From Microbacterium sp. AG1240 (GTDB lineage Bacteria > Actinomycetota > Actinomycetes > Actinomycetales > Microbacteriaceae), in NCBI RefSeq assembly GCF_003635115.1, contig NZ_RBXJ01000004.1, positions 124,001 through 188,000 of the forward strand: DNA of 64,000 nucleotides. The letters are read 5' to 3'. Under the pieces are notes generated by a model. It was given only the letters and a program-made list of their open reading frames with translations, was not told the DNA's origin and did not search any database. Made by a program: the position numbers and the translations under genes. Position 1 is the stretch's first letter. Each line of letters opens with the position of its first letter. Positions 1 through 58,138 of this stretch are shown here, piece by piece.

Positions 1-1488
1 CTCGTCGACCGGCTGGTGCACCTCGATGTACTCGCCACCGGGGAGGCGCACGATGCGGCCCGACTCGTAGCCGTGGAGAACGATCTCGCGGTCCTTCTTC
101 TGCAGCGCGATGCAGATGCGCTTGGTGACGAAGTAGGCGATGATCGGCCCGAGGATCAGCAGGGCCTGCAGGGTGTGGATGACGCCCTCCATCGTGACCC
201 AGAAGTGCGTCGCGATGATGTCGGACGATGCCGCCGCCCACAGCACGGCGTAGAAGGTGACGCCGGCGGCACCGATGGCGGTGCGGGTCGCGGCGTTGCG
301 CGGACGCTGAGCGATGTGGTGCTCGCGCTTGTCGCCCGTGACCCACGCCTCGATGAAGGGGTAGATCATGACGAGCACGATGAACAGACCCAGGATGGCG
401 AGCGGCAGGATGATGTTCCACGAGAAGGTGTGGTCGAACAGCACCGTCTCGAGGTGCGGCGGCACCAGACGCAGCGCGCCGTCGGCGAAACCGATGTACC
501 AGTCGGGCTGCGTACCCGCCGACACCGGCGACGGGTCGTAGGGGCCGTAGTTCCAGATCGGGTTGATCGTGAACATCGCGGCGATCGTGACGATCACACC
601 GAAGACGATGAAGAAGAATCCGCCCATCTTCGACGCGTACACCGGGAGGATCGGGTAGCCCACGACATTGCTGTTCGTGCGGGCGGGGCCGGCGAACTGC
701 GTGTGCTTGTTGACGATCATCAGCATGAGGTGCACCGCGAGCAGCGCCACGAGGATCGCGGGGAGCAGCAGGATGTGCAGCGTGTAGAGGCGACCGACGA
801 TCGCCGTTCCCGGGAACTCGCCACCGAACAGGAGGAACGAGATCCAGGTGCCGATGAGCGGGATGCCCTTGACCATGCCGTCGATGATGCGCAGACCGTT
901 GCCGGAGAGCAGGTCGTCGGGGAGCGAGTAGCCTGTGAAGCCCTCGGCCATGGCCAGGATGAAGAGGATGAAGCCGATGACCCAGTTGAGCTCGCGGGGC
1001 TTGCGGAACGCGCCCGTGAAGAACACGCGGAGCATGTGCACGCCGATGCCGGCGATGAACGTGAGGGCCGCCCAGTGGTGGATCTGCCGGACGAGCAGAC
1101 CACCGCGCATGTCGAACGAGATGCGCAGGGTCGAATCCATCGCGGCCGACATGGCGATTCCGCGCATCGGCTCGTACGCGCCGTCGTAGTGCGTCTCGAC
1201 CATCGAGGCCTGGAAGAAGAACGTCAGGAACGTTCCCGACAGCAGCACGACGACGAAGCTCCACAGAGCGACCTCACCGAGCATGAACGACCAGTGGTCG
1301 GGGAAGATCTTGCGTCCGAGCTCCTTGACGAGGCCCGAGATGCTCGTGCGCTCGTCGAGATAGTTGGCTGCGGCGCCGACGAAGCGGCCGCCCAGCGGCT
1401 TGCCGTCGCGCCCGGCCTCGGGCTTCGGCGTTTCGGTCACCGCCGGCTCGAGGGTGACGTTATCGGTGGGGTGAGATCCGGTACTCAA
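1..1488 (-). CDS. qcrB: Cytochrome bc1 complex cytochrome b subunit, C-terminus cut by window edge
   Basis: Membrane cytochrome b of the actinobacterial menaquinol:cytochrome c reductase, which passes electrons from menaquinol toward the aa3 oxidase. The minus-strand frame is open from 1488 to position 1 (496 codons), so only the last few dozen residues are missing. The start is TTG and overlaps the qcrA stop (ATTGA), implying coupled translation. Visible features are the first membrane segment (WSFMLGEVALWSF), the quinol-site region GFTGYSLPDDLLSGNG, and the following IGTWISFLLFGGEFPG stretch. It is the last gene of the order ctaE-qcrC-qcrA-qcrB, which is conserved in actinobacteria. Confidence 0.95.
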   Translation of the reverse strand, partial: MSTGSHPTDNVTLEPAVTETPKPEAGRDGKPLGGRFVGAAANYLDERTSISGLVKELGRKIFPDHWSFMLGEVALWSFVVVLLSGTFLTFFFQASMVETHYDGAYEPMRGIAMSAAMDSTLRISFDMRGGLLVRQIHHWAALTFIAGIGVHMLRVFFTGAFRKPRELNWVIGFILFILAMAEGFTGYSLPDDLLSGNGLRIIDGMVKGIPLIGTWISFLLFGGEFPGTAIVGRLYTLHILLLPAILVALLAVHLMLMIVNKHTQFAGPARTNSNVVGYPILPVYASKMGGFFFIVFGVIVTIAAMFTINPIWNYGPYDPSPVSAGTQPDWYIGFADGALRLVPPHLETVLFDHTFSWNIILPLAILGLFIVLVMIYPFIEAWVTGDKREHHIAQRPRNAATRTAIGAAGVTFYAVLWAAASSDIIATHFWVTMEGVIHTLQALLILGPIIAYFVTKRICIALQKKDREIVLHGYESGRIVRLPGGEYIEVHQPVDE

Positions 1489-42436: not shown

Positions 42437-43135
42437 TTACGCCACCCGGCGGTACAGCACCTCGGGGCGGCCGCGTGCGCCGAAGCGGTGCGAGACGGCG
42501 GCCCGCCCGGTGTCCGTGAGGTAGGCGAGGTAGCGGCGCACCGTGGCGCGCGAGGCGCCCGAGGCGTCGGCGATCGCCTGCACGGTGGCGGGTGTCGTCG
42601 GGTGCAGCGCCGCGAGGATCGTCTGCAGCGTGGAGTCGGCGAGGCCCTTCGGCAGGGCGGTCGGGACCGACGGGGCGGCGGCGGCGCGCGGTTCGACGAG
42701 CCGGTCGATCTCGCCCTGGGCGAGCCCGATCGGCGTCTCGGCCGGGCGCGCACCGCGCTCGTCGCGGTACTCGGTGAGCCGGGCGACGAACGCCTCCTTC
42801 GTGAACGGCTTGACCAGGTATCCCACGACGTGGGCCGCCAGGGCCTGGCGCACGGTGAACCCGTCACGCGCCGAGCTGATCACCATGACGTCCACACCCC
42901 ACTCGCGCACCAGCCGCAGCCGGTGCAGCACCTCGATGCCGCTGAAGTCGGGCAGGTTCATGTCGAGCAGCACGAGATCGATGCTCGTGTCGGCGGCCAT
43001 CCGCGCCCCCTCCGTGCCGGTGCGGACGGCCGCGACGAGCTCGAACCCCTCGACGTCGCGCAGATACGCCGAGTGCAGGCGCAGTACGGCCGGGTCGTCG
43101 TCGACGAGCAGCGTGCGGATGCGGGGGCCGCTCAC
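42437..43135 (-). CDS. CitB/DcuR-type response regulator
   Basis: 232 aa. Receiver with LVDDDPAVLR, phosphoacceptor D58 (LLLDMNLPD) and K in YLVKPFTKEAF, then a C-terminal HTH of the CitB type (TVQAIADASGASRATVRRYL). GTG start 43135 overlaps the kinase stop (GTGA). Divergent from tctCBA, which it probably controls in response to a carboxylate. Confidence 0.92.
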   Translation of the reverse strand: MSGPRIRTLLVDDDPAVLRLHSAYLRDVEGFELVAAVRTGTEGARMAADTSIDLVLLDMNLPDFSGIEVLHRLRLVREWGVDVMVISSARDGFTVRQALAAHVVGYLVKPFTKEAFVARLTEYRDERGARPAETPIGLAQGEIDRLVEPRAAAAPSVPTALPKGLADSTLQTILAALHPTTPATVQAIADASGASRATVRRYLAYLTDTGRAAVSHRFGARGRPEVLYRRVA

Positions 43136-44385
43136 CGGACGAGCCCCCGGGCCGGGATGGGCATCTCGACCGTGAAGCGCGCTCCGCCCCACGTGGAGCG
43201 TCCGACCGTGATGGTGCCCCCGCGCCCCGCGACCGCGCGACGCACGAGGTCGAGCCCGACCCCGCGCTCGTCGGGTCCGCCCTTCGACGAGACGCCGCGC
43301 TCGAAGACGCGGTCGACCAGGTCGGCCGCGATGCCCGGGCCGTCGTCGCCGACGTCGATGTGCACCCCGGTCGGGTCGGCGGCGACGAGTACGCGAACGT
43401 ACTGCCCGCCCGCCTCGATGGCGTTGCGACAGAGGTTGCCGATCACGAGCAGGTCGGCGTCATCGAGCAGCCCCGGCTCGACGGTCGTCAGCGGATCGAG
43501 CTCGAGGCGCCCGCCGCGTTCGTGGAACTCGGCGGCGAGGGCATCCAGCAGGGTGCGCAGGGCGGGGTCGCCGACCGCCGCGGCCGCCGCGGTGCCGGTC
43601 GTCAGCGGCACCAGTCGATCGACGTAGTCGAGGGCGGCCTCCGACTCGCCCTCGGCGACGAGGCCGCGGATCACGTGCAGTCGGGTGCGGAACTCGTGCG
43701 TCTGGTCGCGCAGCGCCGCGGCGATCCGCCGCTGCGTCTCGGCGTCGCGGGCGCGGTCTTCGAGACGGCGGATGCTGCGGCGCAGGACTCCGGTCAGCAG
43801 CGCGCTGACGAAGCATCCGATCACCACCGATCCGAGCACCCAGGGGAGGAGCCCTCCGACCGCGGCGTTCAGGTCGCTCGCGATACGGCTCTCGAGGATG
43901 CCGACCGACGCCGCGCCCACGATCTCTTCGCCGTCGTAGACCGGCACCTTCGCGCGCAGCGTCGACCCGATCGTGCCCGTCTCGGTGCCCACGAAGGTCT
44001 CGCCGTCGAGCACGGCCGACGGGTCGGTCGAGACCGGCAGGCCGCGCTGATCGGGCGTCGGGTGGGTGAGACGCAGGCCCGCCGCGTCGGTGATGACCAC
44101 GTAGTCGACGCCGGAGGACTCCTGCAGGATGTCGGCGAGCGGCTGCAGCTCCGCCATGGCCGAGGCGGTGTCGTCCTGCACGGCGGTACGCACCTGGTCG
44201 AGCTCGGCGAGGCTCCGCGAGACGTCGAGCACGCGCTCGGTCGTGGCGACACGGATGCTGCGGTCCTGCACCGCGAGGGCGACCAGGGTGGTGACGGCCA
44301 CACAGGCCAGCACGACGACGCACTGCATCACGAGGATCGCCAGCGTGCGGGTCTTCGTGCTCGTGCCCTGCGTGTTCGAGGTCAT
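43132..44385 (-). CDS. CitA/DcuS-type sensor histidine kinase
   Basis: 417 aa. Two membrane helices (TLAILVMQCVVVLACVAVTTLVAL and WVLGSVVIGCFVSALLTGVL) flank a periplasmic Cache/PAS-type sensor (about 45-170). The H-box QTHEFRTRLHVIRG and the HATPase (NAIEAGG, VGDDGPGI, GVGLDLVRR) place it with citrate/C4-dicarboxylate kinases. ATG at 44385. It pairs with the downstream regulator and lies divergent from a tricarboxylate transporter. Confidence 0.93.
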   Translation of the reverse strand: MTSNTQGTSTKTRTLAILVMQCVVVLACVAVTTLVALAVQDRSIRVATTERVLDVSRSLAELDQVRTAVQDDTASAMAELQPLADILQESSGVDYVVITDAAGLRLTHPTPDQRGLPVSTDPSAVLDGETFVGTETGTIGSTLRAKVPVYDGEEIVGAASVGILESRIASDLNAAVGGLLPWVLGSVVIGCFVSALLTGVLRRSIRRLEDRARDAETQRRIAAALRDQTHEFRTRLHVIRGLVAEGESEAALDYVDRLVPLTTGTAAAAAVGDPALRTLLDALAAEFHERGGRLELDPLTTVEPGLLDDADLLVIGNLCRNAIEAGGQYVRVLVAADPTGVHIDVGDDGPGIAADLVDRVFERGVSSKGGPDERGVGLDLVRRAVAGRGGTITVGRSTWGGARFTVEMPIPARGLVR

Positions 44386-44510
44386 CGTCGACTCCTCCGC
44401 GGCGTGAGCATCAATGAGCGCAAATCCAGCCGAACGCGACGCGACACCCACGCGATGCCAGTCTACTCGGGCGGTCTGCAGCAACGACGACGCAGACCCG
44501 GGAGGTGGAT

Positions 44511-45494
44511 ATGCGTCGACGCATCATCGGAACGATCGTGGGTGTGCTCGCCGGGGCGCTCTTCCTCGGCGCCGCCGTGCACGCGAGCGTCACCGGAGGG
44601 GGCTCCGCCAGCCCGCGCACGAAGATCACCCTCGTCGCGCCCGCCGCACCCGGCGGCGGATGGGACGCCTTCGCACGCGAGGGGCAGCAGGTCATGCGCA
44701 CCGAAGGCATCGCCGGGGGAGTGCAGGTCGTGAACATCCCCGGCGCGTCGGGCACGATCGGCCTCGGACAGGTCGCCGAGATGGGCGACCGGCACGACAT
44801 CATGCTCGTCACCGGCGGAGTCATGGTCGGCGGAACGATCATCAACAACTCCCAGGTCACCCTCGAAGACGTCACCCCGATCGCCCGGCTCGCCGACGAT
44901 TTCAACGTGCTCGTGGTGCCGGCCGACTCGCCGTTCCAGACCCTCGACGACTTCGCCGCGGCGCTCGCCGCCGACCCGGGCGGCACGGCCATCGCCGGCG
45001 GTTCACTCGGCGGCATCGACCACCTCCTCGCCGGGCTTCTCGCTCAGGCCGTCGGAGCGGATCCGGCCTCCGTGAACTACCTCGCCTACCCCGGCGGCGG
45101 CGAGGTCGTGACCTCGGTGCTCTCGCACACGGCCGCGGCCGGCCTGTCGGGGTACAACGAGTTCCGCGACCAGATCGAATCGGGCAGCATGCGGGCCCTC
45201 GGCACCTCCGCCCCCGAGCCCGTCGAGGGCATCGACCTGCCGACCTTCCGCGAGGGCGGGCTCGACGTGTCGATGTCGAACTGGCGCGGGTACATCGCCC
45301 CGCCCGGCATCGACGACGAGACCCGTGAGGAGCTGATCGCCATGGTCACCGAACTGCGCGATACGGAGGCGTGGGCCGAGGTGCTCGACCGCAACGGCTG
45401 GGTCGACAGCTTCATGACCGGAGATGACTTCGGCGCATTCATCGCCGATGAGACGCGCCGCACCGAGCAGATCGTCGAGGAGCTGGGACTATGA
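44511..45494 (+). CDS. tctC: Tripartite tricarboxylate transporter substrate-binding protein
   Basis: 327 aa. N-terminal signal (RRRIIGTIVGVLAGALFLGAAVHA), then the Bug/TctC fold (ITLVAPAAPGGGWDAFAREG, INNSQVTLEDVTPIARL, YNEFRDQIESGSMRALG). The ATG at 44511 stands 5 nt after GGAGG and is preferred to the GTG at 44505. The binding protein captures a carboxylate for TctAB; the gene overlaps tctB by 4 bp. Confidence 0.93.
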   Translation: MRRRIIGTIVGVLAGALFLGAAVHASVTGGGSASPRTKITLVAPAAPGGGWDAFAREGQQVMRTEGIAGGVQVVNIPGASGTIGLGQVAEMGDRHDIMLVTGGVMVGGTIINNSQVTLEDVTPIARLADDFNVLVVPADSPFQTLDDFAAALAADPGGTAIAGGSLGGIDHLLAGLLAQAVGADPASVNYLAYPGGGEVVTSVLSHTAAAGLSGYNEFRDQIESGSMRALGTSAPEPVEGIDLPTFREGGLDVSMSNWRGYIAPPGIDDETREELIAMVTELRDTEAWAEVLDRNGWVDSFMTGDDFGAFIADETRRTEQIVEELGL

Positions 45495-46144
45495 CGACCA
45501 ACGATTCACATCCGATGACCACGGGGACCATCCGCGTCCAGCGCATGCCTCGCTGGTTCACCGGCCGCAGCGAGCTGTTCGTCGTCGCCGGCGTGCTCGT
45601 GCTTGCGACGTGGATGCTCATCGGCACCGTCACGATGCAGGTGCCCGACGGCGCCGCCTTCCCCGGGCCACAGTTCTTCCCGACCCTCGTCTGCGTCTTC
45701 CTCTACGCGGTGGGCATCGCCTTGGCGATCGAGGTGCTCCGCACCCCGCAGCGCCAGCACGTGGGGGATGACCCGGTCGAGATCTCCGACGAGATGCTCC
45801 GCGACCTCGGCGCGATCGACGCGACCAGCGAGATCCGCGTCGTCTCGCCCGAGGACTACGCCGCGAAGCCGACGGATGCTGCGGGGAGCGCAGCATCCGG
45901 ATCCGACCACAAGACGGTGCTCATCACGATCGCCGGCTTCGCGGGCTTCATCGTGATCCTGCCGTTCGTCGGCTGGCTCATCTCGGCCGCGGCGCTCTTC
46001 TGGGTCATCGCCTGGGCGTTCGGCAGCAAGCGACCGCTGATGGACATCGCGATCGCCGTCATCGTCTCGTCGGTCGTGCAACTCGCGTTCGGGGCGGGCC
46101 TGGGCCTGTCGCTCCCCGCCGGCTTCCTGGGAGGGATTCTCTGA
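45491..46144 (+). CDS. tctB: Tripartite tricarboxylate transporter small membrane subunit
   Basis: 217 aa with four helices (ELFVVAGVLVLATWMLIG, FFPTLVCVFLYAVGIALAIEVL, TIAGFAGFIVILPFVGWLI, and a C-terminal pair). The hydrophilic middle loop (about 80-135) is longer than usual in TctB. The start overlaps tctC and the stop overlaps tctA (TGATG). Confidence 0.92.
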   Translation: MTTNDSHPMTTGTIRVQRMPRWFTGRSELFVVAGVLVLATWMLIGTVTMQVPDGAAFPGPQFFPTLVCVFLYAVGIALAIEVLRTPQRQHVGDDPVEISDEMLRDLGAIDATSEIRVVSPEDYAAKPTDAAGSAASGSDHKTVLITIAGFAGFIVILPFVGWLISAAALFWVIAWAFGSKRPLMDIAIAVIVSSVVQLAFGAGLGLSLPAGFLGGIL

Positions 46145-47682
46145 TGGATCAGCTCGGACACCTCATGGAGGGGTTCGCGGTCGCCTTCACGCCGCAGAAC
46201 CTGCTCTTCCTCGTCATCGGTGCCGTGCTCGGCACCGCCGTGGGCGTGCTCCCGGGCCTCGGCTCGGCCATGGCCGTCGCCCTGCTGCTGCCGGTCACGT
46301 TCAGCCTCGACCCGACCGGCGCGTTCATCATGTTCGCGAGCATCTATTTCGGGGGGCTGTTCGGCGACTCGACCTCGGGCATCCTGCTGAACACGCCCGG
46401 GAACTCCTCGGCGATAGCCACGACCTTCGAAGGCCATCGGATGGCGAAAGACGGTCGAGCGGCCAAGGCCCTCGGAACGTCGGCGATCGGCGCCTTCATC
46501 GGCGGCACCATCGCCTGCATCCTCGTGGTCTTCTTCGCCCCCGCGATCGTGCAGCTCGCGACGATCTTCGGTCCGGCCGAGTACTTCGCGCTCGCCGTGT
46601 TCGCGTTCGTCGCCATCTCGGCCGTCGTCGCCGACTCGATCGTGCGCGGCCTCGTCTCGCTCGGACTCGGCTTCGCGCTCGCCCTCGTCGGGATCGACGG
46701 CATGACCGGCACCGAGCGGTTCACCGCCGGCAGCCCGGTGCTCTTCGACGGCATCTCGATCATCGTCATCACGGTGGGCCTGCTCGCTCTCGGCGAGGTG
46801 CTGCACGTCGGCTCGTACATCCGTCGATCAGGCGGCCCCGGCGCGGTCGTCGCGCCGAAGGGCTCGCCGATGCTGAACGCCCGCGAGTGGCGTCAGGCGC
46901 TGCCGGCCTTCCTCCGCGGCACCGCGTTCGGCGTGCCGTTCGGTGCGATCCCGGTGGGCGGCTCCGAGGTTCCCACGTTCCTGGCGTACGGCACCGAGAA
47001 ACGACTCGCCAAGCGTCGCAACGACCCCGACTTCGGCACGCGCGGTGCGATCCAGGGCGTGGCCGGTCCTGAGGCCGCGGGCAACGCGACCGCCGGCTCC
47101 GCGATGGGTGCGTTGCTCGGCCTCGGCATCCCCACGTCTGCGACGGCGGCGATGATGATCGCCGCGTTCCAGCAGTACGGGATGCAGCCCGGCCCGCTCC
47201 TGTTCGAGCGCAGCGGCGACCTGGTCTGGCCGTTGCTGGCGAGCCTCTTCCTCGGTCTCATCATCCTGCTGATCATCAACCTGCCGTTCGCCGCGGTGTG
47301 GGCGAAGCTGCTGCTGATCCCGCGTCACTACCTCTACGCGGGCATCTCGGTCGTCGCGATGCTCGGCATCTACGCCATCGCGTCGCGCACCGTCGATCTC
47401 TGGATGGCACTGGGCATCGGCGTCGTCGGGTTGATCATGCGACGCTTCGCGCTTCCGCTGGCACCGGTGCTGATCGCCGCGATCCTCGGCCCGCTGGCCG
47501 AGACGCAGCTGCGCCGTGCGCTGGCGGTGTCGGAGGGCGACCCCACGATCCTCGTCTCCTCGCCCATCACGGTGGTGCTGTATCTGCTCCTCGCGGTAGT
47601 CGTCGGGGTGAGCGTGCTGCAGCACACCCGCCACACCGTCAAGCGCCGCAAGACCGACAAGGCCGACGCGCTCGTTCCGTGA
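46144..47682 (+). CDS. tctA: Tripartite tricarboxylate transporter large membrane subunit
   Basis: 512 aa, about 12 helices. The TctA signature GAVLGTAVGVLPGLGSAMAVALLLPVTF and IYFGGLFGDSTSGILLNTPGNSS are intact, as is GIPTSATAAMMIAAF. It is the channel subunit that uses the proton or sodium gradient. The last gene of tctCBA; a 20-bp perfect hairpin follows. Confidence 0.96.
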   Translation: MDQLGHLMEGFAVAFTPQNLLFLVIGAVLGTAVGVLPGLGSAMAVALLLPVTFSLDPTGAFIMFASIYFGGLFGDSTSGILLNTPGNSSAIATTFEGHRMAKDGRAAKALGTSAIGAFIGGTIACILVVFFAPAIVQLATIFGPAEYFALAVFAFVAISAVVADSIVRGLVSLGLGFALALVGIDGMTGTERFTAGSPVLFDGISIIVITVGLLALGEVLHVGSYIRRSGGPGAVVAPKGSPMLNAREWRQALPAFLRGTAFGVPFGAIPVGGSEVPTFLAYGTEKRLAKRRNDPDFGTRGAIQGVAGPEAAGNATAGSAMGALLGLGIPTSATAAMMIAAFQQYGMQPGPLLFERSGDLVWPLLASLFLGLIILLIINLPFAAVWAKLLLIPRHYLYAGISVVAMLGIYAIASRTVDLWMALGIGVVGLIMRRFALPLAPVLIAAILGPLAETQLRRALAVSEGDPTILVSSPITVVLYLLLAVVVGVSVLQHTRHTVKRRKTDKADALVP

Positions 47683-48406: not shown

Positions 48407-49450
48407 TCACGCCGACGCGATGGCCCCGCGGTCGGGAAGGGCGGACGCGAGCTGCGACCGCCACCACGGCGTCTCGATGAACCCGCGCTTGAGGAAGACG
48501 AGCTCCATGCTGGAGGTCCACCCCTGCACGCCGTCCAGGTGGGCGAGGGAGTCGGTGATGAAGGCGTAGAGCTCGGCGGTCGACGGCGAGATGACCTCGC
48601 ACACGAGGGCGTTCTGGTCCAGGAGCACGGCCAGATAGCGCACGAAGGGGTAGGCGCTCAGTTCACGGGCGACGTCGTCGAGGCGGTCGGGGCGCACCGT
48701 GACCGTCATGAAGGTCTCCGCCGCCATCCCGAGGGCCGCCGAGGGAACGAGGGCGAGCATGTCGACGCAGTGCGTCGTGCGCATCCGCTCGAAACGTCGT
48801 CGCACGCTCGACTCGTTCATGCCGAGTCGTTCGGCGATGCTCTGGAACGTCTCGCGTCCGTCGGCGCGCAGTGCCGAGAGGATGGCGCGATCGGCGCTGT
48901 CGAAATGCTCGGGCGCGCACGCCGCGTGCGTCGGGGGCGCTTCGTCCTCGACGGTGTCGGGCGGGCCGAGCAGCTCCCCGTACAGCTGACGGCCCCAGTC
49001 GAAGCTCACCTTGTACACGTGCAGGATGAGGTCGCTGCGCCAGCGCTCGACACCCTCGATCAGTTGGAGTTCCGCGACGTGCTGCGGGTACCGGGTCGCG
49101 CCACCACGAACGATGACCTCGGCGATGATGTCGTAGCTCCCCGTCACGACGGTGCAGAACCTGACCTCCCTGCTCTGGGCGAGAGTCTCGGCGACACGCA
49201 TCTGCATCCCCGGCGCGGTGTTGATGCGCACGAAGAACGAATCGAACGGTCCGTCGGCTCCGAGGGCGGGAACGGCCGCGACGCGCACGACCCCGTCGGC
49301 GATCAGCTGCTGTCCCCGTCGGGAGACCGTCGTCACCGGGCCGCCGACCGCTTCGGCGATGGCACGCCAGCTGGCGCGCCCGTCGCGTTGCAGCGCGACG
49401 ATGATGCGCTTGTCGAGATCGGTCAATCGGTCCAGGGCGCCCGAGATCAC
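48407..49450 (-). CDS. Tandem Lrp/AsnC-family regulator
   Basis: 347 aa, twice the usual size, with the order HTH-RAM-HTH-RAM. First HTH at about 10-55 (LDKRIIVALQRDGRASWRAIAEAV), first ligand domain to ~160, second HTH near 185-230 (ADRAILSALRADGRETFQSIAERLGMNESSVRRRFERM), second RAM domain after it. Lrp/AsnC proteins sense amino acids and form octamers. GTG at 49450 overlaps the alpha/beta hydrolase stop (GTGA), so it is the last gene of the peptide-type operon and its likely regulator. Confidence 0.88.
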   Translation of the reverse strand: MISGALDRLTDLDKRIIVALQRDGRASWRAIAEAVGGPVTTVSRRGQQLIADGVVRVAAVPALGADGPFDSFFVRINTAPGMQMRVAETLAQSREVRFCTVVTGSYDIIAEVIVRGGATRYPQHVAELQLIEGVERWRSDLILHVYKVSFDWGRQLYGELLGPPDTVEDEAPPTHAACAPEHFDSADRAILSALRADGRETFQSIAERLGMNESSVRRRFERMRTTHCVDMLALVPSAALGMAAETFMTVTVRPDRLDDVARELSAYPFVRYLAVLLDQNALVCEVISPSTAELYAFITDSLAHLDGVQGWTSSMELVFLKRGFIETPWWRSQLASALPDRGAIASA

Positions 49451-50355
49451 GGGTTCGCTGCCGCCTTCGGCGGGACGACCCGATGCAGGAACGAGCGGAC
49501 GGTCCGGGTCCATTCCTCTGCCTCCTCGATCTGGGGCGAGTGGCCCGACTTCTCGAAGACGACGAGATGCGAGTCGGGGATGAGCTCTGCGATGGTCTCA
49601 CTGCACGATACCGGCGTGATCCAATCGGTGCGTCCGACAGTGATGAGCGTCGGCGCCGTCACCCCGGGCAGCCGCGGCTTGAGGTCGTAGTTCTTGAGAT
49701 TGACAGAGAAGGCGTAGTTGTGCGCCTCGAAGCGGTAGGGCGTGGCCTGCACCTTCCTCTCGGTGGCCTCGGGGTCGTAGACGAAGTCGTAGAGGGGCAG
49801 GATCTCCCGCCAGCAGTCCTTGAGGTCGTCGTTGTCGCGGACACGACCTTCGTCGATGCGGTCGAACTTCTCCATGTCGATGTCGACGCGGTCGCTGGCG
49901 ATCGCGTTCTCGCGAGCGAGGTGGGCGTTTCCGTTGTCTGCCGAGGTGTCGCGCAGCACGACCGCGCTCACACGGTCGGGGTAGCGGATGGCGTATTCCA
50001 TCGCGATGAAGCCGCCGTACGAGCCACCCGCCATGATGACCGTCTCGGCGCCCGCCCACTCGCGCAGTCCATCGAGGTCGGCGGCCCACTGCTCGTGGCT
50101 GAAGACGCCCGCCCCCTCGCTCTCACCGCTGCCGCGTGCATCGAAGACCACGACGCGATACTCGTCGGCGAGTCGGCCGAAGCTGGCGCGGGGCTCGGCA
50201 CGCGAGCCGAGCCCGGGCGCACCGTGGTGGGTCAGGATGACGGGAGCGCCCTCTGGGCCGAGCACTTCGACGGCGAGCTCGTTGCCGTTGATCACCACGC
50301 GTTGTGCACGCGTCGTGGCTGCGGCGAACTCGGGGGAGACGGCGTTCTCGGTCAT
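49447..50355 (-). CDS. Alpha/beta hydrolase, proline iminopeptidase-like
   Basis: 302 aa. Oxyanion HHGAPGLGS, nucleophile elbow GGSYGG (Ser), Asp in GRTDWITP and His in SGHSPQ complete the triad. VVFDARGSGESE is typical of proline iminopeptidases. It probably releases an N-terminal residue or hydrolyses an amide/ester made by the same operon. ATG at 50355; overlaps the regulator gene. Confidence 0.88.
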   Translation of the reverse strand: MTENAVSPEFAAATTRAQRVVINGNELAVEVLGPEGAPVILTHHGAPGLGSRAEPRASFGRLADEYRVVVFDARGSGESEGAGVFSHEQWAADLDGLREWAGAETVIMAGGSYGGFIAMEYAIRYPDRVSAVVLRDTSADNGNAHLARENAIASDRVDIDMEKFDRIDEGRVRDNDDLKDCWREILPLYDFVYDPEATERKVQATPYRFEAHNYAFSVNLKNYDLKPRLPGVTAPTLITVGRTDWITPVSCSETIAELIPDSHLVVFEKSGHSPQIEEAEEWTRTVRSFLHRVVPPKAAANP

Positions 50356-50401: not shown

Positions 50402-51595
50402 TCAGAGGGGGATGACGCAGTCCGCGAGCGAGCGCGGGAACGACGTGAGGGGTTCGGAACCGGTCTCGGTGACGAGCATGCTGTCGCTGATCCGGTAGCC
50501 CGCGTGCCCGGGGATGTAGATGCCCGGTTCGTTGGAGACGATCATGCCGGGTCGCAGGACGGTGGGATCGCCGTCCTCGAGCCACGGCGGCTCGTGCATG
50601 CCGAGTCCGATGCCGTGGCCCTGGCGGTGCCGGAGGTACGACCCGAGTCCGGCGTCGCGGATCACATCGAGGCAGCGCGCGTTGCTGTCGCAGCAGCGCG
50701 TGCCCGGGGCGATCGCCCGGCCTCCCTCGGCCTGCGCGTCGCGGATCGTGTCGTGGTAGCGCCGCTGGTCGGACGTCGGCTCGCCCAGCACGAACGTGCG
50801 TTCGCCCTCGACGAAGCGTCCGCCGACGGCGGCTCCCAGGGACAGCATGAAGGTGTCCCCGTCGCGGAGTCGGTACGAGGAGGGCAGGCCGTGCGGGATG
50901 GCCGAGTTCGCTCCGGCGTAGACCAGTCCGCCCGCGAGGAAGGAGATCACGACGACGTCGGCGTGCTCCCGATACATCTTGCCCACGCCCACGCGTCCGA
51001 CGTGGGCTGCGAGGTCGGCTTCGGAGGGGAACGGTGCGCCCGACACGATCGCATCGCGCACGAGGCCGACTCCCTCGTGGAGCATGAGATCCGTGATCCG
51101 AGCCGCCTCGCGGTGGAGTGCGATCTCCTCGGGCAGCTTGATGAAGCGGGCCGTTGTCACCATCTCGCTCGGCACCCACTCGACGTCGTCGAAGGCGGAG
51201 CGCAGGAGCGCAAGGCGATGATGGGTGATCTGCGTGGTGACTGCGATCCTGCGCGCCGGCTTCGCCGCCCGGCAGAGCGGTGCGAAGGGGTTCTCCAGGC
51301 CGGGATACTCCGCGAACGTGACGATCTCGGAGCGCGCACGCTGCTCCTCGGCGTGCTGGCGTTCGAGCTCGGGCACCAGCAGCACGATACGGCCGCTCGC
51401 CTCGAGCAGAGCGGCCACCGGCCGCTCGCCCGGGTGGTGGAAGAACCCCGTCAGGTAGGAGACGTCCTCCGGGTGGTCGGTGATGAGCGCGTCGACCTTC
51501 GCTGCGGCGAGCATGGGCAGCATCCGCTCCTGGATGCGGTCGTAGACCTCCGGATCCAGGCGCTGCGAGAAACGGGTGGACGGATCAGCGCTCAT
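50402..51595 (-). CDS. M24-fold (pita-bread) hydrolase, creatinase-like active site
   Basis: 397 aa with the creatinase N-domain (LDPEVYDRIQERMLPMLAAAK) and the pita-bread catalytic domain. Of the five metal ligands of M24 aminopeptidases, the first Asp is Ser252, the second Glu263 and the last Glu is Ser370; His327 and Glu356 remain. The creatinase pair is kept: His235 lies 11 residues before the GD (246-247) as in creatinase, and Glu265 precedes RTF. So a metal-free amide hydrolase (creatinase or ectoine hydrolase-like) is more likely than Xaa-Pro aminopeptidase. Overlaps the permease gene by 11 bp. Confidence 0.83.
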   Translation of the reverse strand: MSADPSTRFSQRLDPEVYDRIQERMLPMLAAAKVDALITDHPEDVSYLTGFFHHPGERPVAALLEASGRIVLLVPELERQHAEEQRARSEIVTFAEYPGLENPFAPLCRAAKPARRIAVTTQITHHRLALLRSAFDDVEWVPSEMVTTARFIKLPEEIALHREAARITDLMLHEGVGLVRDAIVSGAPFPSEADLAAHVGRVGVGKMYREHADVVVISFLAGGLVYAGANSAIPHGLPSSYRLRDGDTFMLSLGAAVGGRFVEGERTFVLGEPTSDQRRYHDTIRDAQAEGGRAIAPGTRCCDSNARCLDVIRDAGLGSYLRHRQGHGIGLGMHEPPWLEDGDPTVLRPGMIVSNEPGIYIPGHAGYRISDSMLVTETGSEPLTSFPRSLADCVIPL

Positions 51596-52487
51596 GGTTG
51601 CGGGGGTTCCTCGCGTCGTTGTAGCCGATCGAGAGCAGCGTCGCCGACAGCACCAGGGCGAGGATCGCCAGCGAGGGGAACAGTGTCAACCACCACGCGC
51701 TCACCATCGCGCCCGACTGCTGCGCCTCGAACAGGATGCGTCCCCACGACCAGGTCGTGGGGTCTCCGAGTCCGAGGAACGCCAGCCCCGCGGCGGAGAG
51801 CACCGCCCGCGACGCCGTGACGACGACCGACACCACGATGACCGGTGTGACGGCGGGGATGATGTGACGCCCGACGATCCAGATGTGGTTGCGCGTCATC
51901 AGGCGAGCGGCGTCGATATAGGGGAGTTTGACGACGGCGAGAGCCTGCGAGCGGACGAGGCGCGTCACCTCGGGCCACGAGAAGGCCGCCACGACGAGGA
52001 TGATCGTCCATGTGCTGGGCCCCGCGAGCGCGGCCACGAGGATCATCAGCGGCAGAACAGGCAGCGACAGGGTGAGATCGACGACGACGCTGACGACGGT
52101 GTCGAGACGGGGCACGTAGGCGCCGGCGACGGCCACCAGCGTGCCGATCATGATCGCGATCGCCGACGCCGCCACGGCCACGAGAACCGACTGCTGGGTG
52201 CCCCAGATCACCTCGGCGAACACGTCGCGGCCCAGCGCGTCGGTGCCGAACCAGTGGGCCGCGCTGGGCGGACTCAGCACATCGGTGCCGTAGCTGGCGG
52301 GGTAGGGGGAGAGGAGAGGCGCCAGGACGCTGACGAGCACGAGGATCGTCAGGATCACGAGCGAGACGATGCCGAGGGGCTGTCGCCGGAACGCGCGCCA
52401 CGTGGCCCGGCTCGCGCGGTCGCCGCGTTCTCCGGCCGGCTCGACGAGCGGGGTGGTGAGCTCTGTGGTGGTGAGCGGAGCGGTCAT
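51585..52487 (-). CDS. ABC transporter permease, DppC/OppC type
   Basis: 300 aa, six helices, with the peptide-transport permease loop GRDVFAEVIWGTQQS before helix 2 and the EAA-like block ARLMTRNHIWIVGRHIIPAV. N-terminal extension before the first helix. The start overlaps the DppB-type gene stop (ATGA). With its partner it forms the membrane pore for the solute bound by the lipoprotein at 53468. Confidence 0.92.
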   Translation of the reverse strand: MTAPLTTTELTTPLVEPAGERGDRASRATWRAFRRQPLGIVSLVILTILVLVSVLAPLLSPYPASYGTDVLSPPSAAHWFGTDALGRDVFAEVIWGTQQSVLVAVAASAIAIMIGTLVAVAGAYVPRLDTVVSVVVDLTLSLPVLPLMILVAALAGPSTWTIILVVAAFSWPEVTRLVRSQALAVVKLPYIDAARLMTRNHIWIVGRHIIPAVTPVIVVSVVVTASRAVLSAAGLAFLGLGDPTTWSWGRILFEAQQSGAMVSAWWLTLFPSLAILALVLSATLLSIGYNDARNPRNHER

Positions 52488-53449
52488 GAGGCGGTCTTCA
52501 CTCTCGGGTCGAGGAATCCGTAGGCGATGTCGGTGAGCATGTTGGCGATGACGACGGTGAGCGCCAGGAGGAGGAACGCTCCCTGGAGAACGGGGAAGTC
52601 GAGCTGGGTGACGGCCTCGTAGATCCCCCGGCCGATGCCGGGGTAGGCGAAGACCGTCTCGGTGAGCACGGCACCGCCGACGACGAAACCGAGCTGCAGG
52701 CCGATCAAGGTGATGGCGGGGAGCATGGCGTTGCGCAACGCGTGTTTCCAGAGGATGCGGCGCGGGGGGATGCCGTTCGCCTTGGCGAGGGTGACGTAGT
52801 CATCGCCGAGCGCATCGATGAGCGTGGCCCGCATCGTCAGCGCGAACGAGCCGAGTTGGATGAGCGCGAGCGACACGGTGGGCAGCACGAGGTGCTGCAG
52901 CACCGACCCGTACCACTCCATCCCGTAGACCCCCTCGCTGTAGGCGCCGCCGATGGGGAACCAGCGGAACGTCAGCCCGAAGACCAGAAGGAGCAGGATT
53001 CCGACGCTCGGGACGAAGAGCGACTGACCCGTCACACCGAGCACCTGTACGAGCCGGTCGAGAAACCGGTTCTTGTGGGACGCCGCGAGCACGCCGAGCG
53101 GGATGCCGATCACGATCGTGAGCACGAGTGCCGAGATCGTCAGCAGCAGCGTCCACGGCAGTCGCTGCAGGAGGACGTCGACGACGGGCACCGACTGGGT
53201 GAACGACGTGCCGAGGTTGCCCTGCAGCAGCTGCCCCAGGTAGAGGACGTACTGGACGGGGAGGGGCTGATCCAGCCCGTACTGCGTAAGCAGGGCCGCC
53301 CGCGCCTGCTCGGTCATGTTCGTGCTCGCCACTGCCAGCGCGGGGTCACCGGGCAGCAGTCGCAGGAGCAGGAAGGTCACGGTCACGGCGAACAGGATCG
53401 TGACGGCTCCCCGCCCGAGGCGGCGGAGGACGAACAGAGCGATGGACAC
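52484..53449 (-). CDS. ABC transporter permease, DppB/OppB type
   Basis: 321 aa. LRLLPGDPALAVASTNMTEQA is the conserved N-terminal periplasmic loop of OppB-type permeases, and DDYVTLAKANGIPPRRILWKHALRNAMLP is the EAA loop that contacts the ATPase. Overlaps the DppC-type gene by 4 bp and follows the binding protein by 18 bp. Confidence 0.93.
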   Translation of the reverse strand: MSIALFVLRRLGRGAVTILFAVTVTFLLLRLLPGDPALAVASTNMTEQARAALLTQYGLDQPLPVQYVLYLGQLLQGNLGTSFTQSVPVVDVLLQRLPWTLLLTISALVLTIVIGIPLGVLAASHKNRFLDRLVQVLGVTGQSLFVPSVGILLLLVFGLTFRWFPIGGAYSEGVYGMEWYGSVLQHLVLPTVSLALIQLGSFALTMRATLIDALGDDYVTLAKANGIPPRRILWKHALRNAMLPAITLIGLQLGFVVGGAVLTETVFAYPGIGRGIYEAVTQLDFPVLQGAFLLLALTVVIANMLTDIAYGFLDPRVKTAS

Positions 53450-53467: not shown

Positions 53468-55084
53468 TTACTCGGCGACCCGGAAGGCGCTGGCCACCGA
53501 GACGGGGTTGACGATCGACAGCAGCTCGCTGGGCTTGGACATGAAGCCGTCCCACTCGGAGCTGTACGCCACGTAGAGGTTCTGCGTGTACATGACGTTG
53601 TCGTAGACCTGCTCGTGGACGATCTTCGCGGCCTCCTGCATGAGCGAGATCTTCTCGGCTTCGTCGAAGGTCTGGGAGGCCTCGGCGATCAGCGCGTTCA
53701 GTTCGGCGTCATCGTTGTAGGTGTAGTTGATGGCACCGCCGGGCAAGTACGACAGGCTGAAGTTCGTCACCGGGTCGTCCATGATCGCGAAGTTGCCGGC
53801 GTAGATGTCGTAGTCGCCGTCGTTCGTCTGCGACAGGTAGGTGTTGCGCTCCGAGCCCTGCAGCTCGATGCGGATGCCGGCCTGTGCCGCGCCGTCCTTC
53901 ACCAACTGGGCCCACTGGCTCGTCACCGGGTCCTGCAGCGAATAGATGAGGCGGAACGAGACGGGGAACATGCCGTCGCCGTCGGCCGTGTAGCCGGCGT
54001 CCTCCATCAGCTGCCGCGACTGGTCGGGGTCGAAGGCGTACTCGGTGATCGAATCGTCGTAGTACTTCGACAGCACGGGCATCAACGGGCTCGACCCGGT
54101 CGATACGGCCTGTCCCTGCAGCACCACGTTGCGGATCGCCTCGTAGTCGGCGGCGTGTGCGAGCGCCTGGCGCACCTCGACCTTGGCGAGGTCGGGGTTC
54201 TGCATGTTGTAGGTCATGTGGGCATAGCCCAGACCGGTGACTTCGGCGACCTCGATGCCGTCGGTGTTCTGCAGCTGCTGCACCTGCGCGGGCGGCAGCG
54301 AATTGGCGATCACGTCGACTTCGCCGCTCTGCAGCGCGAGGATCTCGGTGTTGACGTCGGGGTAGACCCGGTAGACGACCTTCGCGGCGATCGGCGTGCC
54401 GCCGTCGACGAGCGGGTAGTTCTCGACCCGCTCCATCGTGTAGCTCTGACCTGCCTGCACGGTGGTCAGGAGGTACGGGCCGGCGCTGACCCAGCCGCCG
54501 TCACCATCGTTCGCGAACTCGGCGACCGAGCCCGCGGGTTCGAAGACGTGCTGCGGCACCACGTTCCCCCAGAAGCCGATCTCCTCGACGATCGACGAGT
54601 CGGGCTGGGTCAGCTGGATCTCGACACGCGTGTCGGAGACCGCGGTGGCCGAGGCGAAGTTGGTCATCTGCCCGTAGAAGGTGCCGGAGGGCTGATCCTG
54701 TTTCACCGCGTTCATCGTGTAGGCGACGTCCTCCGCCGTCAGCGGCTCGCCGTCGCTCCACGTCATGTCATCGCGGATCTCGTAGTAGCCGGTGGTGTCG
54801 TCGACGTAGCCCCACTCGGTGGCGAGCTGCGCCTCTTTGGCGCCGTCGTCCCCGATGGACAGCAGGTGCGGGTACATGAGATTCGTGACCCAGTAGTCGC
54901 TGCGGCTGTTGCCGATCAGCGGGTTGTAGTTCACGACGTCGGTGGTGGTGGCGATGGTGAGGGTGTCGTTCCCCGCCTCGCTCGCCCCTCCCGACGGTGC
55001 CTCCGGCGCCTGCGGCGCGCAGGCGCTCAGAGCGAGTGCGGCGACGGCGAGCAGGCCCGCCCCCGCCAGTGTTTTGTGTCGCAT
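53468..55084 (-). CDS. ABC transporter solute-binding lipoprotein, family 5
   Basis: 538 aa. Lipobox LSAC anchors it outside. SBP family 5 features: RDDMTWSDGEPLTAEDVAYTMNAV (the signature WSDGxPxTAxDV), GPYLLTT, and ALAHAADYEAIRNVVLQG. These bind peptides, nickel chelates or sugars; nothing here fixes the ligand. ATG at 55084 overlaps the dipeptidase stop. Confidence 0.93.
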   Translation of the reverse strand: MRHKTLAGAGLLAVAALALSACAPQAPEAPSGGASEAGNDTLTIATTTDVVNYNPLIGNSRSDYWVTNLMYPHLLSIGDDGAKEAQLATEWGYVDDTTGYYEIRDDMTWSDGEPLTAEDVAYTMNAVKQDQPSGTFYGQMTNFASATAVSDTRVEIQLTQPDSSIVEEIGFWGNVVPQHVFEPAGSVAEFANDGDGGWVSAGPYLLTTVQAGQSYTMERVENYPLVDGGTPIAAKVVYRVYPDVNTEILALQSGEVDVIANSLPPAQVQQLQNTDGIEVAEVTGLGYAHMTYNMQNPDLAKVEVRQALAHAADYEAIRNVVLQGQAVSTGSSPLMPVLSKYYDDSITEYAFDPDQSRQLMEDAGYTADGDGMFPVSFRLIYSLQDPVTSQWAQLVKDGAAQAGIRIELQGSERNTYLSQTNDGDYDIYAGNFAIMDDPVTNFSLSYLPGGAINYTYNDDAELNALIAEASQTFDEAEKISLMQEAAKIVHEQVYDNVMYTQNLYVAYSSEWDGFMSKPSELLSIVNPVSVASAFRVAE

Positions 55085-56304
55085 CAGAACCAGACCTCCT
55101 CGAGTACGCGCATCGTGTTGCCACCGACGACGGCGCGGATTTCGTCGTCGGAGTATCCGTTCTTGACCAGCCAGCCGATGATGTTGCCCATCGCTTCGGC
55201 GGGGTTCTCGACGCCGTCGACGTAGGGCACCTCTTCGAAATCGACCTGGCCGTGGGCCTGGCCGAGGGAGAGCTGCGCCGCGAAGGCGTGGTGGAGTCCG
55301 ACGTGGTCGCCGAAAAGGGTGTCGGGTCCGAAGCTCACGTGCTCGATCCCGACGAGGTCGACGCAGTACTGGAAGTGGTCCATCACCGACTCCAGCGAGT
55401 GGTGGGGATGCGCCGGCGACAGGGTCGTGTGGGGAGCCGCCTCGATGCCGATCACCCCGCCGCGCTTGGCGCACTCGATGATCGTCTCGTCGGTCTTCAT
55501 GCGGTTGGTGGGCCAGAGGCCGCGCGCACCGGCGTGGGTGATGAAGACCGGCTTGGTGGAGGCCTTGATGACGTCGACGCAGGTGCGATCGCCCGAGTGC
55601 GAGATATCGATCGCGATGCCCAGCTTGTTCATGCGGGCCACGGCCTTCTCGCCGAAGTAGGTCAGACCGCCGTCGCCGCGTTCCTTCAGCCCGCCGCCGA
55701 GGTAGTTCGCCTCGGAATAGGCGATCCCCATCTGCCGCACGCCGAAGCCGTACAGGACGTCGAGACGGTCGACCTCGTTCTCGATCGGCGTGGCCGCCTC
55801 GAGCGCGAAGATGTGGGCGATCCGGCCCGTGTCCTTCGCCAACTGGATGTCTTTCAGCGACTCGCCCTTGATGACGTAGTCCTGGTGGGCGAGATCGGCC
55901 ATGCGCACGCCGAGGTCGAAGAGGACGTCCTGGTACTTCCAGCCGGCGTCGCTGGAGATGCAGCACGTGCCGTCCATTCCGTTGTCGAACACCGCCGTCA
56001 GTCCGGAGCGCGCGAGACCTTCGTAACCCGTGGGTTCCCTTCCCGCCCGGATGTGGTCGCGCAGGTCTTCCATGTTCTCGGGGAACACCTGCACGTGCTC
56101 GTGCAGGGAGATGACCGTCTCCTCGGCGAGGAGCTTCTTGGCGCGGGTCGACTGCTCATCGGTGAGCTGCAGGCCGGCGTACTCGGGCACGCGGCCGATC
56201 TGGGCGGCGTAGGTGAATTCGCGATAGTCCACCCCTGCTTCGAGATAGTCGTAGGCCCGGTATCCCGTGTACCGCTCAGCTGGTTCGAGCACGTGTGTCT
56301 CCAT
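55084..56304 (-). CDS. Peptidase M19 (membrane dipeptidase)-family protein with variant ligands
   Basis: 406 aa. The M19 blocks are seen, but the first metal motif HxD is SLHEH (H-E-H). Glu in FALEAATPIENE, His in IDISHSG and ITHAGARG, and VSFGPDTLFGDH fill the other sites. An N-terminal extension (about 60 residues) precedes the barrel. M19 proteins cleave dipeptides (also D-forms) or open cyclic amides. First gene of the minus operon, with a clear TTGACA promoter. Confidence 0.86.
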   Translation of the reverse strand: METHVLEPAERYTGYRAYDYLEAGVDYREFTYAAQIGRVPEYAGLQLTDEQSTRAKKLLAEETVISLHEHVQVFPENMEDLRDHIRAGREPTGYEGLARSGLTAVFDNGMDGTCCISSDAGWKYQDVLFDLGVRMADLAHQDYVIKGESLKDIQLAKDTGRIAHIFALEAATPIENEVDRLDVLYGFGVRQMGIAYSEANYLGGGLKERGDGGLTYFGEKAVARMNKLGIAIDISHSGDRTCVDVIKASTKPVFITHAGARGLWPTNRMKTDETIIECAKRGGVIGIEAAPHTTLSPAHPHHSLESVMDHFQYCVDLVGIEHVSFGPDTLFGDHVGLHHAFAAQLSLGQAHGQVDFEEVPYVDGVENPAEAMGNIIGWLVKNGYSDDEIRAVVGGNTMRVLEEVWF

Positions 56305-56436: not shown

Positions 56437-56449
56437 GCCCCGCGGGGTG

Positions 56450-56455
56450 CATGAT
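56450..56455 (+). promoter_or_regulatory. Candidate -10, leaderless ATPase transcript
   Basis: CATGAT-GGTGCG-ATG (56462). Confidence 0.4.
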
Positions 56456-56461
56456 GGTGCG

Positions 56462-58138
56462 ATGACGAACGAGACGATCACGGGCCGAACGGTTCTGTCG
56501 GTGCGAGGACTCGACATCGGCTTCCGCAGCGCCGGTGACTACGTGCCCGCCGTATCCGGACTCGATCTCGACGTGCGCGGGGGCGAACTCGTCGCCCTTC
56601 TGGGCGAGTCGGGTTCGGGCAAGACGGTCACCGCGCGCGCCATCATGGGTATCCAGGACGAAGCGGCCGTCGTGCGCGCCGACGAGCTGCGTCTCGGCGA
56701 CACCGATCTGCTCGCCCTCGATGAAGAGCGCCGCCGCCGGCTGCGTGGCGACGCGATGAGCATGGTGCTGCAGGACGCACTGTCATCGCTGAACCCCGTG
56801 CTGTCGATCGGAGACCAGATCGGCGAGATCTTCCGCGTGCACCGGGGGATGCGGCGTTCCGCGGCCAAAGCGCGCGCCGTGGAGCTCCTCGACCTCGTCG
56901 GCATTCCGTCGCCGAAGACCCGCGTCGACGACTACCCCCACCAGTTCTCGGGCGGCATGCGCCAGCGCATCCTGATCGCGATGGCCATCGCCCTCGAACC
57001 CGCTCTGCTGATCGCCGACGAGCCGACGACGGCTCTCGACGTCACGGTGCAGGCGCAGATCCTTCGCCTGCTGCACGATCTGCGCGGGCGTCTCGACATG
57101 GGCGTGCTCCTCATCACCCACGACATCGGCGTCGTCACCGAAGTCGCCGACCGCCTTGTCGTGATGCACCAGGGCAAGGTCGTGGAGTCCGGGGATGCCG
57201 ACAAGATCTTCGAGGCGCCGCGGGACGCCTACACCCGCACCCTGCTCGGGTCGGCGCCGCGCCCCGAACCGGCGCGCGTGCTCCTGTCCACGACCGGGGC
57301 CGAACGCTCCGACCCCCCGCTCGCTCTCGAGGTGACCGGTCTCACCCGCACGTTCTCATCCGGCTCGGCGCTCTCCCGCCACCACGTCCGAGCGGTGGAC
57401 GGGGTCGACCTCGTGCTGCGCCGCGGAGAGACACTTGGCATCGTCGGAGAATCCGGATCGGGCAAGTCGACGTTGGCTCGCATGATCGTCGGCCTCGAGA
57501 GCGCCGACGCCGGCACCGTGCTCTACCAGGGGCGCGATGTGACCCGCCGCACCCGAGGGCGCCGCCCGGGGGCGCAGGCCGGTGTGCAGATGGTCTTCCA
57601 GGATCCGTACACCTCGCTCGATCCGCGCATGCGTGTGCGCGACGTGATCGCCGAGCCGCACACCGTGGCCGGAGTGGGCACCGCGAGCTCGCGACGAGCC
57701 CGCGTCGCCGAGCTGCTCGACCTCGTCGGCCTCTCGCCCGAGATGATGAACAGGTTCCCCCATCAGTTCTCCGGCGGTCAGCGACAGCGGATCGGCATCG
57801 CACGGTCGCTCATGCGCGACCCCGACGTGCTCGTGTGCGACGAACCGGTCTCCGCGCTCGACGTGACCATCCAGGCCCAGGTCGTCGACCTCCTCGTCGA
57901 CCTGCAGGATCGATTGGGGCTCAGCATCCTGTTCATCTCGCACGACCTGTCGGTCGTGCGGAACCTGGCCCACCGCGTGCTGGTGATGTACCGGGGTGAG
58001 GCCGTGGAGACCGGGGACGTGGAGCAGATCTTCGAGCGGCCCGCTCATGCCTACACGCGTGAGCTTCTCAGCTCGATCCCGCCTCTCACGAGGGCCGAGC
58101 GAGGACGACTCACCAGCGCCGCCCCCGCGGGACGCTGA
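56462..58138 (+). CDS. Two-domain ABC ATPase (DppD-DppF fusion)
   Basis: 558 aa. Two full nucleotide-binding domains: Walker A GESGSGKT and GESGSGKS, signatures FSGGMRQR and FSGGQRQR, Walker [14 protein letters not shown] and [13 protein letters not shown]. Each domain ends with the oligopeptide-transporter block ([27 protein letters not shown]). This powers the divergent permease pair. Divergent arrangement around the shared repeats implies co-regulation. Confidence 0.95.

Follow-up and report, generated by a model that had tools for sequence, protein, structure and literature searches.

Introduction

Creatinase is an M24-fold enzyme that is not known to use a metal; its Glu262 and Glu358 hold creatine, and its Arg335 has a role in binding it. 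With one creatinase, more than 80% of the activity was kept with EDTA, and both Mn and Mg raised the activity, as given in the accessible part of PMC7568399. In the prolidase of P. horikoshii, the Zn2 site consists of Asp226, His290, Glu319 and Glu333 (PMC2814137, Table 5) and the other zinc site of Asp215, Asp226 and Glu333, with Thr228 OG1 (or its equivalent) lying 3.0-3.5 Å away (accessible part of PMC2814137). According to reports cited in the accessible part of PMC10377022, E. coli aminopeptidase P becomes inactive when Asp260 or Asp271 is lost.

The gene described here lies in the window, a 64,000-nucleotide stretch of Microbacterium sp. AG1240 DNA. Judged from its sequence, the product is a prolidase-shaped protein whose two-metal centre has been dismantled and partly rebuilt in a creatinase-like manner, and it is probably a working enzyme, as predicted, for a small peptide-like nutrient. 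A further finding is a discrete class of such proteins, here called xEEHES, together with its conserved operon.

Gene, domains and predicted fold

50402..51595, minus strand: M24-fold protein of 397 amino acids, ATG start, non-canonical active site (xEEHES class); open reading frame, profiles and model

The M24 fold proposed in the initial annotation was confirmed on two levels. Both Pfam domains, Peptidase_M24 (PF00557, 148.4 bits) and Creatinase_N (PF01321, 54.5 bits), were above their curated cut-offs, and all structures listed for the predicted model were M24-fold (pita-bread) proteins, with prolidases and creatinases highest. None of the NCBIfam models, those for Xaa-Pro peptidases included, reached its cut-off for this protein, the best being archaeal PepQ with 135.8 of the 630 bits. 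The closest solved sequences were ordinary prolidases (E 1e-42), with creatinase at E 9e-23.

The AlphaFold2 model, whose input alignment had 49 rows (the window protein plus sequences from 48 loci among the 80 described below), had a pLDDT of 91.7 and a pTM of 0.91. In VIA-align, the creatinases 1chm (Z 39.5; 2.4 Å over 369 residues, 25% identity), 7yto (39.1) and 1kp0 (39.0) came first, followed by the X. campestris prolidase 4r60 (Z 38.1) and EutD (6yo9, Z 36.5). In Foldseek, the prolidases were at the top, and the first creatinases appeared at rank 15 (1kp0) and rank 23 (1chm). The overlay that had been suggested as a check therefore favoured creatinase in VIA-align, albeit with 4r60 close behind, but not in Foldseek. 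Since the two programs rank opposite groups first, the fold is near creatinase and prolidase alike.

Active-site residues and metal sites

Residues were mapped by alignment with the Lactococcus lactis prolidase (4zng, 6xmr) and with 3q6d. The canonical series Asp-Asp-Thr-His-Glu-Glu of the solved prolidases reads Ser252-Glu263-Glu265-His327-Glu356-Ser370 in the window protein, and the following residues are kept in 81/81 rows of the alignment of relatives described below:

50891..50893, minus strand: His235, equivalent to creatinase His232 and to E. coli aminopeptidase P His243 (alignments; role of His243 from the accessible part of PMC4404410)
50840..50842, minus strand: Ser252, replaces the first metal Asp (prolidase alignment)
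50807..50809, minus strand: Glu263, replaces the second (bridging) metal Asp (prolidase alignment)
50801..50803, minus strand: Glu265, replaces Thr and is equivalent to creatinase Glu262 (prolidase and creatinase alignments)
50615..50617, minus strand: His327, a kept metal-ligand position (prolidase alignment)
50528..50530, minus strand: Glu356, a kept metal-ligand position, equivalent to creatinase Glu358 (alignments)
50486..50488, minus strand: Ser370, replaces the last bridging Glu (prolidase alignment)

Ser252, Glu263 and Ser370, which had been called as substituted ligands from the letters of the gene, each fall on a canonical ligand in the alignment with 4zng, 6xmr and 3q6d. Instead of the five metal ligands Asp, Asp, His, Glu and Glu, the window has Ser252, Glu263, His327, Glu356 and Ser370. 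Overall, four of the six diagnostic positions are changed, whereas all eight canonical rows of the side-by-side table read DDTHEE. As read from the alignment, the dinuclear metal set of the window protein is broken.

The relatives are publicly annotated as 'Xaa-Pro peptidase family protein', and a plain Xaa-Pro dipeptidase or aminopeptidase would agree with the prolidases being the closest solved sequences, which also makes some residual peptidase activity possible. With four of the six positions changed from the DDTHEE of the eight canonical rows, and no NCBIfam model at cut-off, such an identity is very improbable. The warning that an Xaa-Pro aminopeptidase label is likely wrong is thus well supported, both by the broken metal set and by the lack of any NCBIfam Xaa-Pro model at cut-off. 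Moreover, ordinary Xaa-Pro activity is unlikely in the window protein because E. coli aminopeptidase P is inactivated by the loss of Asp260 or Asp271 (cited in the accessible part of PMC10377022).

When the zinc sites of the P. horikoshii prolidase (accessible part of PMC2814137) are mapped onto the window protein, the Zn2 site is kept as Glu263, His327 and Glu356, with Glu333 replaced by Ser370; at the other site, Asp215 has become Ser252, Glu333 is lost (Ser370) and the adjoining Thr has become Glu265. This mapping makes a two-metal centre unlikely and one metal possible, given that three of the four Zn2-site positions are Glu, His and Glu, with Glu265 in addition. As far as the residues can tell, no metal and one metal are about equally likely, and two metals are unlikely.

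A possible, although rather unlikely, alternative is therefore a mononuclear metallohydrolase, in which Glu263, His327 and Glu356 (perhaps with Glu265) would bind one divalent metal, and the protein would be a genuine metallopeptidase, though an altered one, whose substrate is some unusual di- or tripeptide. Creatinase retains the His and Glu358 positions, yet is presumably metal-free; in addition, the ligand is displaced by the change from Asp to Glu, and Ser370 stands where the bridging Glu would be. The mononuclear alternative would agree with the carboxylate or His still present at three of the four Zn2-site positions (PMC2814137, Table 5), the invariance of Glu263 and Glu265 in 81/81 rows, and the peptide-type importer and the operon partners from peptidase-related families (see below). 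The accessible part of PMC10377022 both argues, on the basis of a predicted structure, that a domain resembling aminopeptidase P may retain a single metal at its tighter site, and cites the inactivating mutations of Asp260 or Asp271 in E. coli aminopeptidase P, which speak against such an arrangement.

The creatinase reference gene was located by a creatinase motif and aligned with residues 8-400 of the 401-residue 1chm chain. Counting along this alignment with a one-residue offset (chain_range 16..402) gave His232, Glu262, Glu358, Arg64 and Arg335, and the creatinase numbers His232, Glu262 and Glu358 given in the initial annotation hold. The three creatinase rows read N-A-E-H-E-H at the six positions, compared with S-E-E-H-E-S in the window. 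Glu265 does match creatinase Glu262, in the creatinase alignment and in the residue table, as had been claimed, and it is the sole tabulated position common to the window and creatinase but not to the canonical rows. Since His235, His327 and Glu356 are identical in 8/8 canonical rows (as is His334) and Arg58 in 7/8, most of the creatinase match is common to prolidases. The placement of His235 11 residues before GD was right in its spacing, but it is no creatinase mark because the prolidase 3q6d is spaced alike; similarly, Glu356 matches creatinase Glu358 without being creatinase-specific, as all eight canonical rows have it too. When positions are simply counted from the His that both proteins have, Trp338 of the window protein stands at creatinase Arg335, and neither this Arg nor the surrounding stretch GYGHSFGxLSHYYGREAG is found in that protein, which has HRQGHGIGLGMHEPPWLEDGD. 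The creatinase-type site proposed in the initial annotation is thus half supported: Glu265 speaks for it, whereas His235 and Glu356 are common to prolidases and Arg335 is without a counterpart.

At the six positions, the series of two DoeA relatives is E-P-A-Y-I-S. The window protein scored 47.7 of the 613 bits with the DoeA model TIGR02993, below its curated cut-off; the two DoeA rows (L097 and L098) are themselves under this cut-off with 416 and 404 of the 613 bits. Strict creatinase identity was rejected by residues (N-A-E-H-E-H against S-E-E-H-E-S, Arg335 missing), and ectoine hydrolase identity by score and residues, the latter enzyme being a poor comparison. A strict creatinase or ectoine hydrolase acting on creatine or ectoine is extremely unlikely: the match of Glu265 to creatinase Glu262 and the Z of 39.5 to 1chm would favour it, but Arg335 falls on Trp338 with its motif absent, both residue series differ from that of the window, the DoeA score is low, and no ectoine or sarcosine enzyme was present among the eight window genes that were profile-searched.

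Conservation and extent of the class

A family scan of the genome collection, based on a four-member alignment, confirmed 155 relatives, the best 80 of which were kept. All 15 examined active-site and N-domain positions were invariant in 81/81 rows (tblastn matches at the best 80 of 155 loci, plus the window), among them 235, 252, 263, 265, 327, 356 and 370 as well as His334, Glu335 and Arg368; the scan patterns [YH]LTGFFHH and HRQGHGIG include His53 and His327, whereas positions 235, 252, 263, 265, 356 and 370 lie outside them, and in one metagenome-assembled genome (L052) codon 338 of the match is a stop, with residues 356 and 370 counted beyond it. Overall, 85 of the 397 columns were invariant in the 80 loci and the window. 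The retention of Ser252, Glu263, Glu265, His235, His327, Glu356 and Ser370 in all 81 rows argues that the altered residue set is not due to chance. Moreover, dN/dS was 0.13-0.24 in five pairs of the window M24 gene with its relatives, which indicates purifying selection.

The xEEHES class has lost Asp1, has Glu at the Asp2 and Thr positions, keeps the His and the Glu, and has Ser or Ala at the last Glu; its 22 rows in the residue table were assigned by this signature itself. Among the best 30 matches of a class profile in 296 Actinomycetota genomes, four were xEEHES (window included) and 26 read DD(T/S)HEE. The former scored at least 412.9 bits and the latter at most 252.6, leaving a gap of 160 bits with no match inside it, so that xEEHES is a discrete state in that sample. 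Within the genus its occurrence is patchy: besides the window's own genome, one of the 34 same-genus genomes carries the M24 gene, and it was present in 4/58 genomes searched, its own included (E <= 1e-60 in both cases). No fitting description of the class or its operon was found in the open-licence PMC literature, which is weak evidence of absence.

The signature was also found in plasmid-borne relatives from Terrarubrum, Neorhizobium, Deinococcus (two settings), Leisingera, Cytobacillus and the haloarchaeon Halostagnicola. Among these relatives the first position varies between Ser, Gly and Ile, and the last between Ser and Ala. This sample consisted of 21 records fetched by hand among 60 listed of 417; 20 of them entered the residue table, which omits Neorhizobium L092 on account of its split M24 genes. 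Canonical residues were read in eight fetched records, and one, from Roseovarius, was odd in another manner. On that Roseovarius plasmid (L123, 2504-3646), the M24 protein reads C-G-D-R-D-G at the six positions and adjoins genes for an arylmalonate decarboxylase and for subunits of sarcosine oxidase; ectoine transporter genes lie close by. Another contig of the window's own genome has a second non-canonical M24 (L006, 937-2181), which reads D-N-S-Y-E-A and scored 99 bits with the DoeA_2 model against a cut-off of 575.

A repeated other setting was seen on Deinococcus plasmids (L093, L094, L095, L122), where a class member is accompanied by an IclR regulator, an ABC importer of the peptide type and a hypothetical protein. 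The hypothetical protein of L093 bears a weak resemblance to DUF885 (24.2 bits, the cut-off being 32.4), and L093-L095 add a 2-dehydropantoate 2-reductase and a Gfo/Idh/MocA oxidoreductase. On Neorhizobium plasmids (L092, L096, L109), two class members adjoin each other, accompanied by an ABC importer; near those of L092 lie a deacylase with 74 of the 402.7 bits of the DoeB model and an amidohydrolase with 216.7 of the 500 bits of an Xaa-Pro dipeptidase model. The host plant contains the guanidine galegine, whose degradation was considered as the Neorhizobium pathway, and nothing else supporting it was found.

Phylogenetic analysis

With all columns, the canonical rows stood on one side of a branch with a support of 98/92, which dropped to 90/90 when the eight active-site columns were removed (L006 and L123 being excluded from this second tree). 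The xEEHES rows without creatinase stood on one side of a branch in 2% (all columns) and 0% (columns removed) of 200 bootstrap trees. Constraining them together alone was not rejected (p-AU 0.276), nor was one origin of xEEHES together with creatinase (p-AU 0.586). Because creatinase, DoeA, L113 and L116 have long branches, the trees fit one or several origins of the xEEHES/creatinase state.

Operon and gene neighbourhood

The neighbours of the M24 gene are given below with the number of loci having a tblastn match (80 loci, the best 80 of 155); a transporter match may be a paralogue.

48407..49513, minus strand: two-domain Lrp/AsnC-type regulator, start uncertain (profile; 73/80 loci)
49447..50355, minus strand: alpha/beta hydrolase, proline-iminopeptidase-like, with near-invariant Ser112, Asp244 and His272 (profiles; 79/80 loci)
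51585..52487, minus strand: OppC-type ABC permease, its end overlapping the M24 start (profiles; 79/80 loci)
52484..53449, minus strand: OppB-type ABC permease (profiles; 79/80 loci)
53468..55084, minus strand: substrate-binding protein SBP_bac_5, lipoprotein-like N-terminus (profiles; 79/80 loci); the listed 832-residue reading frame begins too far upstream, and these coordinates were used
55084..56304, minus strand: M19 hydrolase (membrane-dipeptidase family) with an H-E-H motif, His68 and His70 (profile; 73/80 loci)
56447..58138, plus strand: fused DppD/DppF-type ABC ATPase, divergent from the other genes (profiles; 78/80 loci)

The order on the minus strand is M19, substrate-binding protein, OppB, OppC, M24, alpha/beta hydrolase and Lrp/AsnC-type regulator. 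Since the ATG of M24 overlaps the end of oppC, M24 is probably translated within the operon. At lower coordinates, in 43132-47682, tripartite tricarboxylate transporter-like genes (binding protein, small and large membrane subunits; 44505-47682) and a sensor kinase-like reading frame (43132-44484) were seen by eye.

Neither an M19 nor a regulator match was present in seven of the 80 loci (Devosia L074, L077, L078, L080 and L081, the alphaproteobacterial L070 and the short contig L019), so the M19 enzyme is not obligatory. Beyond the divergent ATPase genes, the Devosia loci have a hydantoinase/oxoprolinase-like reading frame and an M20-type peptidase, both recognised by eye. In 297 genomes of the window's order (its own included), M19 was present in 10 (E <= 1e-80) and M24 in 9 (E <= 1e-60); both occurred together in nine genomes against 0.3 expected if independent, the genomes being related to each other. 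In one genome (G528), the M19 match is partial and lies on a different contig from M24. A plasmid of Deinococcus sp. QL22 carries permeases, a BPL_N protein, M19, alpha/beta hydrolase and M24 in a row, with 58% (M19), 48% (alpha/beta hydrolase) and 30% (M24) identity to the window proteins. In two genomes (L124 and L125), a nine-gene operon runs in one direction as M19, substrate-binding protein, OppB, OppC, M24, alpha/beta hydrolase, DppD, DppF and M19, with gaps of at most about 270 bases between the tblastn matches; the M19 at each end has about 61-64% identity to the window M19. The recurring importer and three hydrolases suggest that a small peptide-like compound is taken up and completely hydrolysed.

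The M19 residues His68, His70, Glu169, His236, His257 and Asp328 are near-invariant (at least 97%) in 74 rows. Where the window M19 has H-E-H, renal dipeptidase presumably has H-x-D, and the Deinococcus relative has H-D-H. The window M19 may itself be an altered member of its enzyme family.

According to the accessible part of PMC13188858, EutD homologues in Archaea cluster with aminopeptidase genes and a BCCT transporter. The Cytobacillus xEEHES member also lies near a BCCT transporter, which suggests that some class members may already appear in print as neighbours.

Median identity across the loci was 62.9% for M24, compared with 84.1% for M19 and 80.5% for the alpha/beta hydrolase. The faster divergence of M24 than of its operon partners would also fit a relaxed, non-catalytic role, as in a pseudoenzyme that only binds a ligand or partner (for example, by dimerising with an active paralogue); Ebp1/PA2G4 and PID-5 are M24 pseudoenzymes of this kind. 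The lost canonical metal set and the two adjoining M24 copies in Neorhizobium point the same way. Nevertheless, such a role is improbable: His235, Glu263, Glu265, His327, His334, Glu335, Glu356 and Arg368 are invariant in 81/81 rows, and PID-5 is reported to have lost the His equivalent to His243 (accessible part of PMC10377022), whereas the window protein keeps His235.

Proposed function

On balance, the prediction of an active non-canonical M24-fold hydrolase, not a two-metal Xaa-Pro peptidase, is slightly favoured for the window protein. In the best reading, it would hydrolyse an amide or amidine without the help of a two-metal centre, as part of a pathway by which an imported peptide-like compound is degraded. 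Somewhat more tentatively, and with less than even confidence, the proteins might form an unnamed prolidase-fold enzyme class with an E-x-E-R-T motif and no or one metal, acting as the central hydrolase of a self-contained import-and-hydrolysis system for a peptide-like nutrient. This system would comprise the ABC importer, the alpha/beta hydrolase and M24, joined by M19 in Actinomycetota and Deinococcus but not in the Devosia loci seen.

In such a pathway, the importer would take up a small peptide-like compound, such as a modified or cyclic dipeptide or an amidino or ureido compound, and M19, the alpha/beta hydrolase and M24 would break it into ordinary metabolites. Either His235 would serve as the acid/base on water while Glu265, Glu356 and Glu263 bind the substrate by its cationic or amide nitrogen, like Glu262 and Glu358 of creatinase, or Glu263, His327 and Glu356 would hold one metal ion that activates the water. 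If this is true, public annotation mislabels a clearly separable class as Xaa-Pro peptidases. The recurrent operon with M19, alpha/beta hydrolase and M24 narrows the search for the substrate to a few proteins.

Comparison with known systems

Creatinase (1chm) resembles the window protein in its whole fold and in the equivalents of His232, Glu262, Glu358 and Arg64, and the first metal Asp, the second Asp and the last Glu are gone in both; however, creatinase has Asn, Ala and His where the window protein has Ser252, Glu263 and Ser370. The prolidases (4zng, 6xmr, 3q6d and 1pv9) are the best sequence matches and share the fold, His235, His327, His334 and Glu356, but they have Asp1, Asp2, Thr and the last Glu in place of Ser, Glu, Glu and Ser. 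DoeA/EutD (6twk, 6yo9) likewise have an M24 fold without the canonical metal set (EutD 6yo9: 21% identity, Z 36.5 in VIA-align), whereas the DoeA relatives are without the His and the Glu that the window protein keeps. For the APP-related domain of PID-5 from C. elegans, the loss of one of the two metal sites on an aminopeptidase-P fold is proposed in the accessible part of PMC10377022; this protein is proposed to be inactive and is without the His equivalent to His235. If the proposed reading is true, the xEEHES class would represent an in-between state from the two-metal prolidase to creatinase, in which the catalytic Glu has been gained and one metal site has largely been kept.
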